From Gallionella sp. (GTDB lineage Bacteria; Pseudomonadota; Gammaproteobacteria; Burkholderiales; Gallionellaceae), in the NCBI GenBank assembly GCA_030653355.1, contig JAURZN010000224.1, positions 1 through 32,678 of the forward strand: a DNA stretch of 32,678 bases. The letters are read 5' to 3'. The translations under genes were made by a program, and so were the position numbers. The notes under the pieces were generated by a model that did not search any database, had not been told where the DNA came from, and saw only the letters and a program-made list of their open reading frames with translations. Every line of letters begins with the position of its first letter. Position 1 is the first letter of the stretch. This document shows, piece after piece, positions 26,934-32,678 of the stretch.

Positions 26934-27395
26934 TCAATTTACGCCCAGCAATTCCACATCAAATACCAGCGTGGCATTGGGAGGAATCACGCCGCCTGCG
27001 CCGCGCGCGCCGTAGCCCATGTGGGCAGGAATGATCAGCGTGCGTTGACCGCCCGCCTTCATGCCGTCAAAACCCTGATCCCAGCCCTTGATGACACGGC
27101 CTGCGCCGAGCGGGAAATCGAAGGGTTCGCTGCGGTCACGCGAACTGTCGAACTTTTTGCCTTTGTGATCGGCAGCAGCCTCGTCATACAGCCAGCCGGT
27201 GTAATGCACGGAAACGTGGTTGCCTGCGCTGGCTTCGGCGCCTTCGCCCAGTCTGGTATCGGTCTTGATCAGTTCGGTCATGCTGCTGTTCTCCATGGTG
27301 GGTGCGGGGGGTGCGGCCTGTTCAGAGCACGCGGTGGTGGAGAAAACTCCGGCAGATAAAAGCAGAGCCAGCGGTAAAAAAGCGATGCGTTTCAT
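26934..27395 (-). CDS. FKBP-type peptidyl-prolyl isomerase with N-terminal signal sequence
   Basis: Catalyses proline cis-trans isomerisation, here probably in the periplasm or on a membrane. The start [19 protein letters not shown] is a signal peptide; TTACSEQ could be a poor lipobox or a normal cleavage region. One FKBP domain follows: [71 protein letters not shown]. An open frame runs upstream to 27467, but that part is a palindromic repeat. The mature part is very close to the first domain of the tandem FKBP gene just upstream (LIKTDT.LGEGAEA.AG), so the two arose by duplication. Confidence 0.93.
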
Positions 27396-27413
27396 GTGAT
27401 TCCTTTGTGAATT

Positions 27414-27472
27414 GTAGGGTGGGCTAATGCCCACCTTATGTGTTTCGCGTGGGCACGTTGTGCCCACCCTAC
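27414..27472. repeat. Large GTAGGGTGGGC palindrome between the two FKBP genes
   Basis: GTAGGGTGGGC (27414-27424) is the inverted complement of GCCCACCCTAC (27462-27472). Two inner hairpins are nested: GGTGGGC-TAAT-GCCCACC (27419-27436) and GTGGGCAC-GTT-GTGCCCAC (27449-27467). It is the same family as 4328-4351. It could act as a terminator or RNA-stability element, or be a mobile palindromic unit. Confidence 0.85.
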
Positions 27473-27474
27473 GG

Positions 27475-28161
27475 TTAATTCAATTTCAGCAATTCCACAT
27501 CGAACACCAGCGTGGCATTCGCCGGAATTACGCCGCCCGCGCCGCGTTTGCCATAACCCATCTCCGGAGGAATGGTCAGCGTGCGCTGACCGCCCACCTT
27601 CATGCCCTGCACGCCCATATCCCAACCCTGGATGACACGGCCCATGCCCAGCGGGAAATCGAACGGCTCGTTGCGGTCGCGCGAGCTGTCGAACTTTGTG
27701 CCCTTGTTGTCAGGTGCTTTCTTGTCGAACAGCCAGCCGGTGTAATGCACGGAAACTTGGTTGCCTGCCTTAGCCTCATCACCCTCGCCGACCTTGCTGT
27801 CCACGATCTCGGTTCTGATCACCTTGAGCAGTTTCACTTCGAACAACAGGGTCGAGTCAGGCGGGATGTCGTCGCCCGCACCGCGCGCGCCATAGCCCAT
27901 CTCCGACGGGATGACCAGCGTGCGGCTTCCGCCTTCCTTCATGCCTGCCACGCCCTAATCCCAGCCCTGAATGACGCGTCCCGCACCGAGCGGGAAATCG
28001 AACGGGTCGTTGCGGTCGAGCGAACTGTCGAACTTTGCGCCCTTGTTGTCGGCGGCGGCTTCGTCGTACAGCCAGCCGGTGTAATGCACGATGACGGTCT
28101 GTCCGGCGGTGGCTTCAGCGCCTTCGCCCAGTTTGGTGTCGGTTTTGATGAGGTCGGTCAT
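27475..28161 (-). pseudogene. Two-domain FKBP-type isomerase interrupted by an in-frame amber codon
   Basis: Read as one frame from [10 protein letters not shown] to the stop at 27475, this is 228 residues with two FKBP domains in tandem and no signal peptide. A single TAG (27954-27952) stands where both the neighbouring gene and the second domain show the conserved GWD followed by Gln or Met (GWD[13 protein letters not shown]). CAG to TAG is the simplest cause. Both sides remain perfectly in frame and without decay. The second FKBP domain ([12 protein letters not shown] to [10 protein letters not shown]) is complete. The upstream part alone gives only 67 residues, and no ribosome site precedes the ATG at 27951. 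Possible explanations are recent inactivation, suppression or a base error. Confidence 0.85.
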
Positions 28162-28177
28162 GATATTTCCTTGGTAT

Positions 28178-28486
28178 TTAATTTGATGATGGTTTCGTTA
28201 AATGAGTTTTAATCCATGCGGGATTACGGCGACAATCCAGCACCGCGCAGATCAATACATCCTGCCCCTGTAACTTGTAATAGATTGCAAATGGGAAGCG
28301 CTTGGAAAGTACCCGGTGATATTGCCCGAAATACACTGCGTGGATGCCCGCATAAAGCTGCAAAGAATCAATGTCGGAGAACAACGAATCAAGGAAATAT
28401 TCCCCTAGTCCGGCCTGCTGTCTTTCGTAGAAGCGGTGTCCCTCGATTAAATCCTGAGATGCCGTATCAAGGATGCGCAGCTTCAT
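28178..28486 (-). CDS. RelE/ParE-family toxin
   Basis: A 102-residue protein of the type II toxin superfamily. [28 protein letters not shown] is the typical first strand and helix pair, and [26 protein letters not shown] is the typical C-terminal core with a conserved Arg-Arg. RelE-like members cut mRNA on the ribosome; ParE-like members attack gyrase. The sequence alone does not decide. The ATG overlaps the antitoxin stop by four bases (ATGA), the usual toxin-antitoxin layout. Confidence 0.88.
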
Positions 28487-28701
28487 TTCAGCGCGTCGCG
28501 GATTCTGGCTTTTTCGGTCTCCCAATCCCGATACGTTGCACTACCCTCGGCCACCGATAGCTCGCGCTGTGCCAATACCTCACCATGCCAATCCGGAGAA
28601 GATACCTCGTCCGCATGGCGGCAAAGGTCATCCCACAAATATTCCATCGTGCTGATCTTCTCGGCGGTGCTGAGCTGATCCAGTTGGGCGGTGATGTTCA
28701 T
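28483..28701 (-). CDS. Addiction-module antitoxin (unstable antitoxin family)
   Basis: A 72-residue protein. LDQLSTAEKISTMEYLWDDLC followed by SPDWHGEVLAQRE and a helical Glu/Arg-rich end ([14 protein letters not shown]) is the pattern of the short 'addiction module component' antitoxins that pair with RelE/ParE toxins. AGGA lies about five bases before the ATG. It overlaps the toxin start by four bases. A palindrome (28750-28776) separates it from the HARE-HTH gene. Confidence 0.88.
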   Translation of the reverse strand: MNITAQLDQLSTAEKISTMEYLWDDLCRHADEVSSPDWHGEVLAQRELSVAEGSATYRDWETEKARIRDALK

Positions 28702-28749
28702 GGCTATCCTTTCACAAATCGAGTCTGAACATAATACTTACATCCGTAA

Positions 28750-28776
28750 GGTGCAATACGCTACGCTTATTGCACC
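28750..28776. repeat. GGTGCAATA...TATTGCACC palindrome
   Basis: GGTGCAATA (28750-28758) and TATTGCACC (28768-28776) form a perfect nine-base stem with a CGCTACGCT loop. This looks like a common dispersed intergenic palindrome of proteobacteria. The plus side is followed by a T-rich stretch, so it might also act as a weak plus-strand terminator. Confidence 0.75.
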
Positions 28777-28800
28777 AGTTTTTAGTTTTAATTGTGTGAG

Positions 28801-29757
28801 CTATAACCCATTAATCTTATTCAAGATATAGGTATCTACGTCTTTTAGAACTTCGTCATATTCTGTTTTATGGATGCGCTTTGATTCAAAATCAATCTTT
28901 ACGTCTTCAAGAAACTTGTTGAAGTCAGGATTCTGTTCGCAGAGTTTGTTTATCGTTTCCCAATCTAGCGATGCTTTGGTCTTAGCTGGATAAAGAATCT
29001 TTGAGCTATCGATATCTTCAAGATTTAGCTGGATGATCCCGATACCAAATGATGAGACCAACCTTTCGAGTTCAGATAGAAAGTCATCATCTTGCAAAAT
29101 ATTCGGGGCAACCAACCAGCCTTCGTGAGCCCACGATGAATTTGAAACAGCCTGGAAATATGCTTCGCGATAATTCGCTTTATTCAATGATTTTTTAAGC
29201 TCGAATGAAAATAGCTTTAGTGAATCGTTATCTGAAAGCCTGTTGAACTCAATAACGCTCGGTCTCCAATCATCAAGCGGCAAATAAAATCCAACAATAT
29301 CTGGATGAATCCATTCGTTGTAGCCAGACTTGGTTGATTTTTCATGGAAAATGGTTTTCGTGAAAATTGATTTCCCACGATTAAAAGCTGGATTGGCGTA
29401 AACAAAATACGTGAGTAATGGATGAAGCGCTCGCTCGTGAAAGCTTGTTTTCTTCCCAGGCTTAGCTAATTCCTCTTTTTCTATGATGCTGATGGTGTCG
29501 GACTTAATTTCTAATTCACGACTCTTCAGAAAGAATCGTGCAGGGCGTTTACCCACCTTGATGAAGTGCGATTTTTCATTATCCCGAACATCAACATAAA
29601 GCCGTGCTCCCAAAGTTTGCCAAGGGGTTAATCCAGCAGTTTGAATTTTTTCTGTTAGCCCATTTGTTTTGCCGACTTCCCATATTTCTTGGTAGGTAAG
29701 CGGCTTTGCGGAGGTAGTGAGAACATCTATTGCCAAATCAAAGAAAGAATAACTCAT
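28801..29757 (-). CDS. HARE-HTH domain protein with PD-(D/E)XK nuclease-like C-terminal part (COG2958-like)
   Basis: A 318-residue protein, clearly more A+T-rich than its neighbours. Residues 1-75 match the HARE-HTH winged helix (FFDLAIDVLTTSAKPLTYQEIW, then GLTPWQTLGARLYVDVRDN). The rest fits a restriction-endonuclease fold: E108 in the FHERALHPLL helix, D153 in WIHPDIVGF, the E-x-K of FELKK (185-189), and a YREAYFQAVSNSSWAHEGW helix. HARE-HTH domains are found with restriction enzymes and have been proposed to recognise modified DNA. No methylase lies nearby. The ATG overlaps the stop of the metH-tail frame upstream (ATGA at 29757-29754). Confidence 0.8.
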   Translation of the reverse strand: MSYSFFDLAIDVLTTSAKPLTYQEIWEVGKTNGLTEKIQTAGLTPWQTLGARLYVDVRDNEKSHFIKVGKRPARFFLKSRELEIKSDTISIIEKEELAKPGKKTSFHERALHPLLTYFVYANPAFNRGKSIFTKTIFHEKSTKSGYNEWIHPDIVGFYLPLDDWRPSVIEFNRLSDNDSLKLFSFELKKSLNKANYREAYFQAVSNSSWAHEGWLVAPNILQDDDFLSELERLVSSFGIGIIQLNLEDIDSSKILYPAKTKASLDWETINKLCEQNPDFNKFLEDVKIDFESKRIHKTEYDEVLKDVDTYILNKINGL

Positions 29758-29795
29758 TTCTCAATGTCTCCTGGTATTGGTGCAAAGACGATTTG

Positions 29796-29904
29796 ACTTA
29801 GCACCGGCGCGAGCCACCGCTCCGCCTGTTCCAATGCCCAGCCCTTGTGTAAGTGTATAGCTTGCCACCTGATTCCTTTCAATCTTGTAGGTGGTGTGGT
29901 ATTT
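29796..29904 (-). pseudogene. Remnant B of a metH 3' end
   Basis: Lines up with the true metH end (31085-31195). Minus-strand translation gives YKIERNQVASY and, after a one-base shift, [18 protein letters not shown], against [14 protein letters not shown] and [18 protein letters not shown] in metH. Similarity runs about 109 bases. The differences at conserved positions (for example ALEQ for DIEK) suggest that it came from another metH, not from a fresh copy of this one. The shifted frame runs on to a TGA that overlaps the start of the HARE-HTH gene. Confidence 0.85.
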
Positions 29905-29924
29905 AGATTGTGTAAATTCAGGGG

Positions 29925-30305
29925 TCATTTGTCGGTTTTGAATTGCGCTAGCAGATTTTGCAGGCGCTGGTCGAGCGTCAACAGTGTGAGGTTGTTCACC
30001 AGTGCTGTGGCGGCAATGATGGCGTCCGGCAATTTGCAGTGGCTGGTGCGGCGCAACTGAATAGCCTTTTGCTCAACGAGTTCATCAATGAACAGGATGC
30101 GACAGTTTTGCAGCAAATCCAGAATGGCAAGCTCTTCTTCGGGCAACAAGCCGGGAAATCCAAGCAATTCCATGCGCGTGATCTGGCTGACGGCTGCTTT
30201 GCTCAAATCGAACGGGTGAGATTCGAGCAGCGCGATGGTGGCTGTTTGCTGTTTGAGCAAACCGATGACCACATTGGTGTCCAGCAACCACTCAACTCCA
30301 CTCAT
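29925..30305 (-). CDS. vapC: PIN-domain ribonuclease toxin (VapC-like)
   Basis: A 126-residue PIN protein. The first acidic residue is in WLLDTNVVIGLL. SQITRMELLGFPGL carries the conserved Glu, and KLPDAIIAATALVNNLTLLTLD carries the later Asp residues, so the metal site looks complete. VapC toxins cut tRNA or other RNA. The start MSGVEW overlaps the end of the antitoxin gene by 14 bases; a longer frame to 30329 lies wholly inside the antitoxin gene. It lies between metH remnants B and C. Confidence 0.9.
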   Translation of the reverse strand: MSGVEWLLDTNVVIGLLKQQTATIALLESHPFDLSKAAVSQITRMELLGFPGLLPEEELAILDLLQNCRILFIDELVEQKAIQLRRTSHCKLPDAIIAATALVNNLTLLTLDQRLQNLLAQFKTDK

Positions 30306-30516
30306 CGCGCATCTTTCGCTGAATGGCAACGGGGTCTTCGTTGAAACAAGGCGAGTCTTTTAATGCGCCAACAAAGCTACGCCAATCGGTTTTAGCTATC
30401 GTTTTTTCGGGTATCACTAACGTTAACAGTCCGCGCCGCTCCGCTGTCACGGGCAAGGTTTGCAAGGGGTGTATGCCGCCCTGTGCATCAATTTCGACTT
30501 CTATTGTCTGTAACAT
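30292..30516 (-). CDS. vapB: Antitoxin partner of the PIN toxin (VapB-like)
   Basis: A 74-residue protein: a beta-rich N-terminal half (MLQTIEVEIDAQGGIHPLQTLPV, GLLTLVIPE) that probably binds DNA as a dimer, and a C-terminal tail (DWRSFVGALKDSPCFNEDP) that probably wraps the toxin. AGGA lies six bases before the ATG. The layout, with a 14-base overlap into vapC, is typical. The closest antitoxin class is not certain. Confidence 0.82.
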   Translation of the reverse strand: MLQTIEVEIDAQGGIHPLQTLPVTAERRGLLTLVIPEKTIAKTDWRSFVGALKDSPCFNEDPVAIQRKMRDEWS

Positions 30517-30556
30517 GGCAATTCCTTGTAAATTGAACGAGCGCTATTCTACGCCC

Positions 30557-30640
30557 TCAAAAACTCGACACCTGCGCCAGCCAGCGTTCGGCCTGTTCCA
30601 ATGTTTAGCCCTTGTTTCTGGCGTAATCAGCAACTGCAAC
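30557..30640 (-). pseudogene. Remnant C of a metH 3' end, fused to the end of the DUF2442 gene
   Basis: Lines up without gaps with the metH end. Minus-strand translation reads VAVADYARNKG, a TAA, then TLEQAERWLAQVSSF and TGA; metH reads [11 protein letters not shown], then [15 protein letters not shown] and TGA. The conserved Trp codon has become TAA. Remnants B and C share LEQ and the plus-strand GCCTGTTCCAATG, which metH lacks, so they are closer to each other than to the intact gene. Confidence 0.82.
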
Positions 30641-30913
30641 TCGTTGCACCAATGTTAACGGCCTTGGCGCGGGCTCACCGTATAGCATGCCTTCGATGCT
30701 GATGTCTTCATCAACTTCGGGCCAATGGATGCCGATGCCGTCGCCGATGATCTCCCAGTGGCTGCGCTGTTCGGGCGTAGCTTCGGACAAGCGCCACGAC
30801 CAAGCAAGCGGTACGCTCACTGAGCGCCCGTCCATCAAATAGGCCGTGATTTCGGCTTCTGTGACCCGCAAATCGGAAATTTTGGGTTCAACGATTAACG
30901 CCACAGTGTTCAT
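30605..30913 (-). CDS. DUF2442 domain protein, probable addiction-module partner of DUF4160
   Basis: A 102-residue protein whose core is a clear DUF2442 domain: VTEAEITAYLMDGRSVSVPLAWSWRL, ATPEQRSHWEIIGDGIGIHWPEVDEDISIEGML. The family is commonly paired with DUF4160 as a putative toxin-antitoxin. GGAGG lies six bases before the ATG at 30913. The last 17 or so residues (LVQRVAVADYARNKG) do not belong to the domain; they are the start of metH remnant C, into which the frame has run. The intact family usually ends with its own WL..R-type tail. Confidence 0.85.
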   Translation of the reverse strand: MNTVALIVEPKISDLRVTEAEITAYLMDGRSVSVPLAWSWRLSEATPEQRSHWEIIGDGIGIHWPEVDEDISIEGMLYGEPAPRPLTLVQRVAVADYARNKG

Positions 30914-31040
30914 TCCATGCCTCCATCCAGTATTTACACACCTTGCGTTCGCGCTGGACATGCACATGCTTAGGTTCACTGCAATCAAAGCTGAAAAAGA
31001 AGAGCCGATATGGCCCAGAAATTTCTCGTATTGTGGGCAT
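30888..31040 (-). pseudogene. DUF4160 gene with a probable internal deletion
   Basis: A 50-residue frame, too short for most gene callers. MPTIREISGPYRLFFFSFDC and EPKHVHVQRERKVCKYW match the start of DUF4160 proteins, and MEAWNEHCG matches their end. About 30 residues expected between these parts (the helix region that usually begins after KFW) are missing without loss of frame. AGGA precedes the ATG at 31040. It overlaps the DUF2442 start. It is either a deletion-damaged gene or a functional miniature. Confidence 0.7.
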
Positions 31041-31081
31041 GCTCGTTCCTGAAAGTTCAGACTGCGATTCATTCTACTACA

Positions 31082-32678
31082 TCAATAACTCAACACCGGC
31101 GCCAGCCACCGCTCGGCCTTCTCGATGTCCCAGCCCTTGCGCTCGGCATAGCTTGCGACCTGATCTTTCTCTATCTTGCCGGTGGCAAAGTATTTTGCAT
31201 CCGGGTGCGAGAAGTAGAAGCCGGAAACCGCAGCGGTGGGCATCATCGCGAAACTGTCGGTGATGGTGATGCCGGCACGGTTGGGCGCATCCAACAGCTC
31301 GAACAACGGGCCTTTTTCGCTGTGTTCCGGGCAGGCGGGGTAGCCGGGGGCGGGACGGATGCCGCGATACTTCTCATTGATCAGCGCATCGTTATCCAGA
31401 CCTTCGTCGGCAGCATAGCCCCAGAACTCGCGGCGCACGCGGGCGTGCAGCAGTTCGGCGTAGGCTTCGGCCAGACGGTCGGCCAGCGATTTGAGCAGGA
31501 TGGCGTTGTAGTCGTCGTGGTTTTTCTCATATTGCGCTACGCGCGCGTCGAGGCCGATGCCGGCGGTGACGGCGAAACCGCCGATATAGTCCGCGATGCC
31601 GCTATCTTTAGGCGCGATGTAATCAGCCAGGCAATAGTTCGGGATGGATTCCGGTTTCTTGGTTTGCTGACGCAGGTTATGCCAGGTCATGGCCACCGTC
31701 GAACGGGTCTCGTCGGTGTAGATTTCGATGTCGTCGCTGTTCACGGAGTTTGCCGGGAACAGACCGAATACGGCATTGGCGGTGAGCCATTTACCGGCGA
31801 TGATTTGCTTCAACATCACCTGCGCATCGGCGAACAGCTTGGAAGCTTCCTCGCCCACGACCTTGTCCTGCAATATTTTAGGGTAACGTCCGGCCAGTTC
31901 CCATGCCTGGAAGAAGGGCGACCAGTCTATGTATTCGGCGATTTCCGCCAGACTATAGTCGCGCAGCTCCTTTACGCCGGTGAAGTTTGGCCGCGGCGGT
32001 GTGTAGCTGCTCCAGTCGGTTGCCAGTTTGTGCGCGCGCGCCTGTTCCAGCGGAACGTACACGGCCTTGGATTGTCTGGATTCGTGCTGTACCCTTGCAT
32101 CAGCATAGTCAGCCTTGATCTCGGCAACGTATTCGTCGCGCAGGGTGGAAGAGAGCAGGTTGCTGCACACGCCGACCGCGCGCGAGGCGTCGGTGACATA
32201 CACGGTGGCGCCACTCGGGTAATTCTGTTCGATTTTAACCGCCGTATGCACGCGCGAAGTCGTCGCACCGCCTATCAGCAGCGGGATCTTGAAGCCCTGG
32301 CGCTCCATCTCTTTGGCGACATGCGCCATTTCTTCCAGCGAAGGCGTAATCAGACCGGACAGGCCGATGATGTCGGCATTGTGCTCGCGCGCGGTGTCCA
32401 GAATCTGCTGGCAGGGCACCATCACGCCCATGTTTACCACCTCGAAGTTGTTGCACTGCAATACCACGGTGACAATGTTCTTGCCGATGTCATGCACGTC
32501 GCCCTTGACGGTCGCCATGACGATCTTGCCCTTGGTGCTGGTGTCGCCGGAGCGCAATTTTTCGGCTTCGATGTAGGGGATCAGGTGAGCCACGGCCTGC
32601 TTCATCACGCGGGCGGATTTCACCACTTGCGGCAAAAACATTTTGCCCGCGCCGAACAGGTCGCCAACCACGTTCATG
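31082..32678 (-). CDS. metH: Cobalamin-dependent methionine synthase, C-terminal part (runs off the window)
   Basis: Transfers a methyl group from methyltetrahydrofolate to homocysteine via methylcobalamin. Only the last 531 or so residues are present. They hold the end of the four-helix cap ([18 protein letters not shown]), the cobalamin-binding [10 protein letters not shown] with the cobalt-ligating His, then [15 protein letters not shown] and GGATTS. The SAM-dependent reactivation domain follows ([30 protein letters not shown]). The C-terminal [11 protein letters not shown] is intact. Two decayed copies of this 3' end lie downstream at 30557-30640 and 29796-29904. The N-terminal homocysteine and folate domains must lie beyond the right edge. 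Confidence 0.96.

Follow-up and report, generated by a model that had tools for sequence, protein, structure and literature searches.

Minimal mobile elements of Neisseria are alternative small cassettes that are swapped between two conserved genes through homology in the flanks, and in this they resemble the locus behind the methionine-synthase gene metH in Gallionellaceae; we know of no tail scars among them of the kind found at metH. Integrative elements at gene 3' ends are also similar in that they restore the gene end and leave the displaced old end downstream, which they do with an integrase and a fixed core site. In contrast, no integrase is recognised at the metH locus and the tail starts vary, and we found neither a recombinase in or near the element nor one fixed crossover point. 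Gene-turnover hotspots that lack mobile elements and whose flanks recombine have also been described (Oliveira et al. 2017, PMC5635113). Like the metH locus, these hotspots are small gaps of variable, rapidly changing content that lie between core genes and lack a recognisable integrase, and their flanks recombine, as those at metH may do; the double homologous recombination proposed there need leave no scar, whereas truncated flank copies lie between stacked modules at metH. The metH–FKBP interval has two conserved flanks and varied content, and no integrase or transposase was found in the gap among the Pfam matches listed. One-sided joining is known as homology-facilitated illegitimate recombination, in which (PMC3240628) one incoming end joins by homology and the other without it, giving insertions of about 1 kb as at metH; the products described there generally carry a deletion of similar size, unlike the metH locus, which keeps the old neighbors and where events repeat at one natural locus. 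We propose, with a probability of roughly 0.6, that in Gallionellaceae this interval acts as a recombination hotspot that carries no mobile-element genes and in which one-sided joins leave tail scars.

Gene order behind metH

The window, by which we mean the whole analysed stretch of 32,678 nucleotides of DNA from Gallionella sp., a relative of iron oxidisers, ends within metH (Table 1). On the minus strand metH is followed by a truncated DUF4160 and DUF2442, remnant C, VapBC, remnant B, and a HARE-HTH gene; this is the order given in the original prediction, with which Pfam and the alignments agree. Beyond the HARE-HTH gene lie an additional pair composed of Unstab_antitox and a ParE-like ORF (28178-28701) and then the FKBP gene, which is broken by an in-frame stop. 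The HARE-HTH gene had been called nuclease-like, a description that its sole match, the HARE-HTH domain, does not bear out. The antitoxin preceding the PIN toxin has no match in Pfam or NCBIfam and is named VapB because its ORF adjoins that toxin; its leader resembles one found behind metH in other genomes. The element GTAGTAGAAT follows the metH stop in 13 of 141 loci (window counted, one mismatch allowed) and precedes vapB, a vapB scrap, hicB or, in the window, DUF4160.

Table 1. Features of the window from metH to the FKBP gene.
Feature	Position	Strand	Evidence or remark
metH 3' part, B12-binding and activation domains	31082..32678	-	Pfam PF02965, E 2.5e-130; open to contig edge; stop ends at 31082; left flank of variable gap
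GTAGTAGAAT	31071..31080	-	Immediately 3' of metH stop
DUF4160, truncated (profile 2-32 of 65)	30888..31040	-	PF13711, E 1.5e-6
DUF2442 gene, within ORF 30605-31072	30605..30913	-	PF10387, E 4.8e-20 for ORF
Remnant C, displaced metH 3' end	30557..30640	-	blastn E 3e-10; nhmmer E 5e-12
VapB-like antitoxin	30292..30516	-	Position and similarity to relatives
VapC toxin, PIN domain	29925..30329	-	PF01850, E 3.8e-14
Remnant B, displaced metH 3' end	29796..29912	-	blastn E 1e-18; nhmmer E 3e-19
HARE-HTH domain protein, 318 aa	28801..29757	-	PF05066, E 6.6e-11
Addiction-module pair: Unstab_antitox	28483-28701	-	PF09720, E 1.1e-13
Addiction-module pair: ParE-like ORF	28178-28525	-	PF05016, E 0.0085, below Pfam cut-off
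Tandem FKBP gene	27475..28161	-	PF00254; right flank of gap

The blastn and nhmmer matches identify both remnants as metH 3' ends, as had been proposed, and two decayed ends stand behind the intact one. Against the intact end, remnant B is identical at 81 of 109 positions (29796-29904) and remnant C at 47 of 59; a profile of relatives, which also recovers remnant B, lengthens remnant C to 77 nt (profile positions 72-148 of 150). The start of remnant C falls within the end of the annotated DUF2442 ORF (VAVADYARNKG followed by TLEQAERWLAQVSSF), and the final codons of the DUF2442 gene are metH tail sequence. The LEQAERWLA residues of the remnants differ from metH, as originally noted. A DNA search of the window's own genome with the metH end returned metH and remnant B, all other matches having E values of at least 0.06, and a protein search returned three places in total.

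Displaced tails and a variable gap in Gallionellaceae

Of 140 additional metH loci from Gallionellaceae, 8 have a displaced metH tail 0.4-0.8 kb behind the gene (E<1e-4). At these loci and in the window every tail is on the strand of metH, and in each case one or two small modules (VapBC, BrnTA-like, DUF4160/2442, or HicBA plus DUF2442) lie between metH and the tail. The tail at L204 has DNA matches of E 1e-5 to 1e-6 and reaches only E 1.5 with a six-frame protein profile; an additional tail behind HicBA at L089 is borderline (E 0.003 in one DNA search and 0.037 in another) and is not supported by the six-frame protein profile. We reject chance matches: the best match on the opposite strand had only E 3.3, and five shuffles gave none. 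Origin from a different gene family is ruled out, as a metH-only profile recovers the tails and nothing comparable on the other strand. Part of the genome sample consists of metagenome assemblies, and an assembly artefact is unlikely because the copies are diverged and are seen in nine genomes. Retention of the tail as a promoter or terminator was likewise rejected, such sites not being in excess over shuffles in the window (28150-31300). The tails of the por gene gave no relics across 66 regions; a control with FKBP tails is confounded by FKBP paralogs.

Outside Gallionellaceae we saw no convincing case of a displaced tail. Among 54 loci taken as non-Gallionellaceae (L034-L076 and L078-L088, several with little downstream DNA), blastn with each locus's own tail gave weak matches only, at L074 and L080, and among 252 non-family genomes with a match in the protein search a second place was found only in G418, the window query being less sensitive there. 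One genome of the sample, G063, groups with the g14 genomes though it is listed as g1.

Two of the displaced tails retain the native right-hand neighbor of metH. In G031 (L098) the tail lies 8 nt before PhzF, shortly before which metH itself stands in seven other loci, and in G032 (L134) it lies ~40 nt before the FKBP gene. In 115 of 141 loci metH has an FKBP gene downstream of it, and the distance between the two genes ranges over 16-4548 bp. The gap is nearly empty (<200 bp) in 33 of 114 loci, the window left out, and elsewhere holds varied toxin–antitoxin, nuclease, and other genes (125 ORFs in 82 clusters, some of them surely spurious); this survey of Gallionellaceae supports the expectation that in related genomes the site behind metH is sometimes empty and otherwise varies in its modules. 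The absence of a visible integrase or transposase also holds by Pfam: no recombinase, integrase, or transposase was found among the matches in the window gap, in the full match lists of 49 of 62 gap-ORF representatives, or among the matches listed for the other 13. The sole transposon hint in the gap comes from L195, which has a MITE-like stretch. A mirror scar is present at L152, where 60 nt of the FKBP start are followed by NTase/HEPN and then by an intact FKBP gene. The counts are uneven, with metH tails at nine loci versus FKBP starts at one clear locus, an excess that chance joining need not give.

Ancestry of tails and modules

We measured the ancestry of ten displaced tails in two ways, by identity and by tree, ranking each tail's own metH among 141. 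For four of the ten (L093, L138, L204, and window C) another lineage's metH is the nearest on either measure, the own gene ranking 39-118 of 141 by identity and 28-118 in trees that fragments of 53-204 nt leave weak. The window B and L196 tails are foreign in the tree only (for L196, own rank 3 by identity versus 15 in the tree). The tails of L098, L134, L159, and L193 are close to their own or a sister metH, the first three grouping with their own clade in the tree. For C, whose own metH ranks 69 of 141 by identity and 105 in the tree, there is good support for the claim that the present metH was not the source of the copy; for B, with own ranks of 4 and 105, the support is weaker.

Between the window and its sister G077, the last 240 nt of metH have 24 mismatches versus 47 in 1186 nt upstream (p 5e-4, from a single sister pair split at a point that we chose); the last 60 nt alone give p 0.22, and other pairs are too diverged for their metH ends to be compared. 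The right flanks of this pair are 95.4% identical over 4184 bp, and the gaps are unrelated. The DUF4160/2442 DNA of the window is 87-88% identical over 283 nt to that of L159 and L196, whose metH ends are only 76-80% identical to the window's, a pattern by which this module has passed from one lineage to another.

Origin of the scars

The scars most likely record ordinary interspecies recombination of DNA and not a new integration enzyme. DNA of a related species, carrying a metH end with a small module behind it, would recombine with the metH already present through ordinary homology. The old module would be replaced where the second end also pairs, for example in the FKBP gene; where the other end joins without homology inside a metH tail, or alternatively where the incoming piece forms a circle that enters through a single crossover, DNA would be added. 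An additive event would rebuild metH, place the new module behind it, and leave a 5'-truncated tail and the former neighbor downstream, and the metH-module-tail-module-tail-module array of the window would represent either a pair of these events or a single one that brought in an array assembled elsewhere. The truncated tails and the one truncated FKBP start fit a pair of junctions of which one is homologous and the other is not. We infer this route and order of events; what is observed are recurrent tails, some of mixed ancestry, the neighbors kept in two genomes, the variable gap, and the mirror scar. Of 12 relatives in the same genus, 11 have ComEC (E. coli also matches), which was not found in the host's own, 89%-complete genome, so that competence of this host is only a possibility.

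The original prediction that modules arrive with a metH tail and push the old tail onward agrees with the native neighbors kept in G031 and G032 and with a metH end that in the window is more diverged from its sister than the rest of the gene, but the part of it by which every insertion merely shifts the host's own former tail downstream is not supported, as four of the ten tails, window C included, are nearer to the metH of other lineages. A mechanism special to gene 3' ends is disfavored because the mirror scar is a truncated FKBP start, and because tails begin anywhere between about -53 and -200 nt relative to the metH stop. The notion of an enzyme-free capture site is right in that no recombinase was recognised; the locus is better termed a homologous-recombination hotspot with one-sided joins.

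A module with its tail could instead be a RecA-dependent cassette, in which direct metH tails recombine to yield a circle that re-enters at any metH end by one crossover, the junction being fixed for each cassette. L159 and L196 have a DUF2442-to-tail junction region in common and the VapBC tails of three species begin at about one place, as such cassettes would predict; however, an allele made once and spread by ordinary recombination or descent gives equal sharing, and the spacers at the VapBC junctions are only loosely alike, and we regard this explanation as unlikely.

Slightly more doubtful is site-specific integration, in which a recombinase in trans would insert cassettes ~118 nt before the metH stop, each cassette supplying a metH end and displacing the old one, in the manner of integrative elements at the 3' ends of genes. 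This reading is kept alive because a tail start near -118 recurs: starts within about 3 nt of one another lie there behind VapBC in three genomes (window B, L138, and L193) and BrnTA in one (L098), with the borderline HicBA case of L089 in addition, and a near-palindrome, GGCGcAATATTtCGCC, was read by eye at this start. By our own grouping, close pairs of starts have P 0.03 without L089 and 0.002 with it, and the largest start cluster has P 0.04 with L089. These data are suggestive of a preferred break near -118 nt. The metH 3' end might then be a cassette-capture site, its -118 point reused by unrelated toxin–antitoxin modules (VapBC, BrnTA, perhaps HicBA) with the metH tail as address and moved by a recombinase in trans or as RecA-dependent circles, a scheme that we consider equally improbable. 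Against site-specific integration, the remaining tails begin at about -200, -78, and -54 (shorter tails may be decayed longer ones), the largest-cluster test, again with our grouping, gives P 0.50 without L089, which the protein profile does not support, and there are the FKBP scar and the lack of a recognised recombinase in the gap.

It is very improbable, and already disfavored, that the host duplicated its own metH end locally and that modules were later inserted between the copies: the copies are near metH on the same strand, the L159, L098, and L134 tails fall in their own clade, and own metH ranks high by identity for L196 and window B, but the window C, L093, L138, and L204 tails are nearer other lineages' metH by both measures and DUF4160/2442 has crossed lineages.

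The metH locus bears on the question of how small toxin–antitoxin and defence genes are moved in the absence of mobility genes. A double crossover can replace a module and leave nothing behind, whereas the truncated flank copies at metH record successive additions in order, some of them with readable ancestry, and it therefore becomes testable, at one locus in many species, by what route, in what order, and from which donors modules were gained.

Remnants of metH in the window and its relatives

Behind metH on the minus strand, the window carries a truncated DUF4160 gene with DUF2442, remnant C, VapBC, remnant B, and a gene for a HARE-HTH protein, the order given in the original prediction, to which an Unstab_antitox/ParE-like pair is added; beyond lie two FKBP genes, the nearer one a tandem gene, and genes for pyruvate:ferredoxin oxidoreductase. 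That both remnants are metH tails is borne out by alignment with the metH end (remnant B, 81 identical over 109 nt, E 1e-18; remnant C, 47 over 59 nt, E 3e-10) and by a profile of relatives' metH ends (E 3e-19 and 5e-12), which lengthens remnant C to 77 nt, so that C overlaps the final codons of the DUF2442 ORF. Searches of the window's own genome with the metH end returned metH, both remnants, and no other convincing place. An in-frame stop breaks the tandem FKBP gene, a copy uninterrupted in relatives, and short G+C-rich dispersed repeats (GTAGGGTGGGCACAAGTGCCCACG...) occur in intergenic gaps of the window and of metH locus L090.

Coordinates of features (window, forward strand; loci marked L, signed positions; extra metH-like ends, genome:contig:positions)
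Feature	Location	Position
metH stop (minus strand)	window	ends at 31082
Remnant C	window	30557-30640
Remnant B	window	29796-29912
Tandem FKBP gene with in-frame stop	window	27475-28161
G+C-rich repeats	window	27392-27472
G+C-rich repeats	L090	+34 to +124; +611 to +696
60-nt FKBP start	L152 (genome G036)	+719 to +778
VapBC between two FKBP genes	L104 (genome G084)	about +736 to +1420 behind metH
Extra metH-like end	G109	G109:C6:12361-12627
Extra metH-like end	G094	G094:C1:2197145-2197312
Extra metH-like end	G093	G093:C95:26871-27467

The nearest named relatives of the window are Gallionellaceae, and metH was detected in 142 of 158 genomes of this family. From 139 genomes we sampled 140 metH ends, each with as much as 8 kb of downstream DNA. 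The set lacks G096, G150, and G109's main copy, contains two divergent metH-like ends (L224 and L227), and includes 11 loci with <2 kb downstream. The original prediction pointed to the region behind metH in relatives, and there the tail–module–tail pattern is present at E<1e-4 in 8 of the 140 loci (9/141 with the window), alongside near-empty gaps; a tail at L089 is borderline (E 0.037 in one search, 0.003 in another) and lacks support from a protein profile. Every displaced tail lies on the strand of metH, the best opposite-strand match having E 3.3; five shuffles gave no match at E<1e-4, and the tails of three por genes gave no relics in 66 regions. Outside the family, 54 loci held no convincing displaced tail, and an order-wide sample yielded a second metH-end match, a candidate only, in one (G418) of 252 matching non-family genomes. 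Three genomes carry additional metH-like ends (55-63% identity) at a distance from the main metH gene.

Displaced tails, with start in nt before the metH stop and rank of the locus's own metH (by identity, of 141; in the tree)
Tail	Module before the tail	Start	Identity rank	Tree rank
L159	vapB scrap, DUF4160/DUF2442	about -200	2	2
L134	BrnT gene, presumed partner (no Pfam match)	-54	2	2
L196	vapB scrap, DUF4160/DUF2442	about -200	3	15
Window B	VapBC	near -118	4	105
L098	BrnT gene, presumed partner (no Pfam match)	near -118	5	5
L193	VapBC	near -118	5	7
L204	HicBA, DUF2442	-54	39	28
L138	VapBC	near -118	54	81
Window C	truncated DUF4160, DUF2442	-78	69	105
L093	vapB scrap, DUF4160/DUF2442	-78	118	118

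Content of the metH–FKBP gap

An FKBP gene lies downstream of metH in 115/141 loci, across a gap of 16-4548 bp; 33 of the 114 loci other than the window have a gap <200 bp. The 125 gap ORFs, some surely spurious, form 82 clusters, and 65 of these have a single member. Among the families that 62 representatives match in Pfam are HNH, GmrSD, Mrr, HipA, HEPN, HicA, HicB, PIN, ParE, BrnT, and AAA ATPases, as well as PhzF, FMN-binding, EAL/GGDEF, and a P-type ATPase, and AbiLi is among the PADLOC matches listed (25 of 118 families); the gap is therefore a mixed hotspot, rich in toxin–antitoxin and defense-like genes. No recombinase is present in the complete Pfam lists of 49 of the 62 representatives or among the matches listed for the other 13. 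Another recurring occupant of the gap, immediately after metH, is a PhzF-family gene (L115, L123, L135, L136, L143, L144, and L171); in L098 it stands behind the displaced tail, not behind metH itself.

The VapC group of the window (>60% identity) is present in 9/158 genomes: six members immediately follow metH, the one in the window follows remnant C, that of G084 comes after the first FKBP gene, and that of G065 lies ~1.3 kb behind metH, where no FKBP was found. The sequence GTAGTAGAAT (at most one mismatch) immediately follows the metH stop in 13/141 loci and precedes vapB, a vapB scrap, hicB, or, in the window, DUF4160. It also leads the VapBC of L104, a region with a possible metH tail scrap of ~30 nt. 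Directly behind metH in L195 (genome G114), between the metH TTAA and the vapB leader, a stretch of ~145 bp bounded by inverted repeats of 16 nt looks by eye like a MITE or IS remnant. After the displaced tail come a HARE-HTH scrap in L093 and an HNH gene in L204.

Ancestry of tails and modules

Tail ancestry was judged by identity rank among 141 metH ends and by a tree built from the final 210 nt. Based on these ranks, four tails (L093, L138, L204, and window C) look foreign by both measures and two (window B and L196) in the tree only, all from fragments of 53-204 nt. The L138 tail groups with L163 (support 0.99), that of L196 with L152 (0.93), and that of L204 with g14/g12 genomes (0.92); those of L098 and L134 fall inside their own clades (0.95 and 0.90). 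The original claim that neither remnant was copied from the present metH is well supported for C, by both measures, and more weakly for B, in the tree only. Given that the window DUF4160/2442 is 87-88% identical to those of L159 and L196 over 283 nt versus 76-80% for the metH ends, this module has passed from one lineage to another.

Relative to sister genome G077, the window metH has 24 differences in the last 240 nt versus 47 in the remaining 1186 (p 5e-4, at a cut point that we chose); with cuts between 90 and 570 nt p does not exceed 0.012, and for just the final 60 nt it is 0.22. This excess rests on one pair, other pairs being too diverged for the test. The window and G077 share 95.4% identity across 4184 bp of the right flank; their gaps are unrelated.

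Direction and a proposed mechanism

In L098, 8 nt separate the displaced tail from a PhzF gene, which metH itself shortly precedes in seven other loci (the L143 contig ends inside this gene), and in L134 about 40 nt separate the tail from FKBP, as metH from FKBP in near-empty loci. Based on this spacing, the downstream tail in these two loci keeps the former neighbor of metH.

Tail starts cluster. When each module–position combination is counted once, with a grouping picked after the data were seen, close pairs are in excess (P 0.03 without L089, 0.002 with it), and the largest cluster has P 0.50 and 0.04, respectively. L159 and L196 have a common junction region, so shared starts reflect, in part, either descent or transfer of a unit already assembled.

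Locus L152 has a 60-nt FKBP start, followed by an NTase/HEPN pair and an intact FKBP gene, and this truncated start mirrors the scars left by metH tails. A similar FKBP match in L146 resembles in situ decay.

Hotspots that have recombining flanks but lack mobile elements are documented for 80 species (PMC5635113); joining at one side only is known from transformable bacteria (PMC3240628). In titles and abstract openings on homology-facilitated illegitimate recombination, toxin–antitoxin systems, metH (an unspecific term that also retrieves "meth" words), Gallionellaceae, minimal mobile elements, and flank-copy hotspots, with few subscription papers covered, we found no description of the present pattern.

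A truncated tail would be left by a one-sided event, with a homologous join in metH and a non-homologous one at the other end, or, alternatively, by a circularized piece entering through one crossover. Interspecies recombination inside metH would carry the following module along. We infer this mechanism from the scars, and the scars, the ancestry of the tails, and the kept neighbors fit interspecies recombination in metH.
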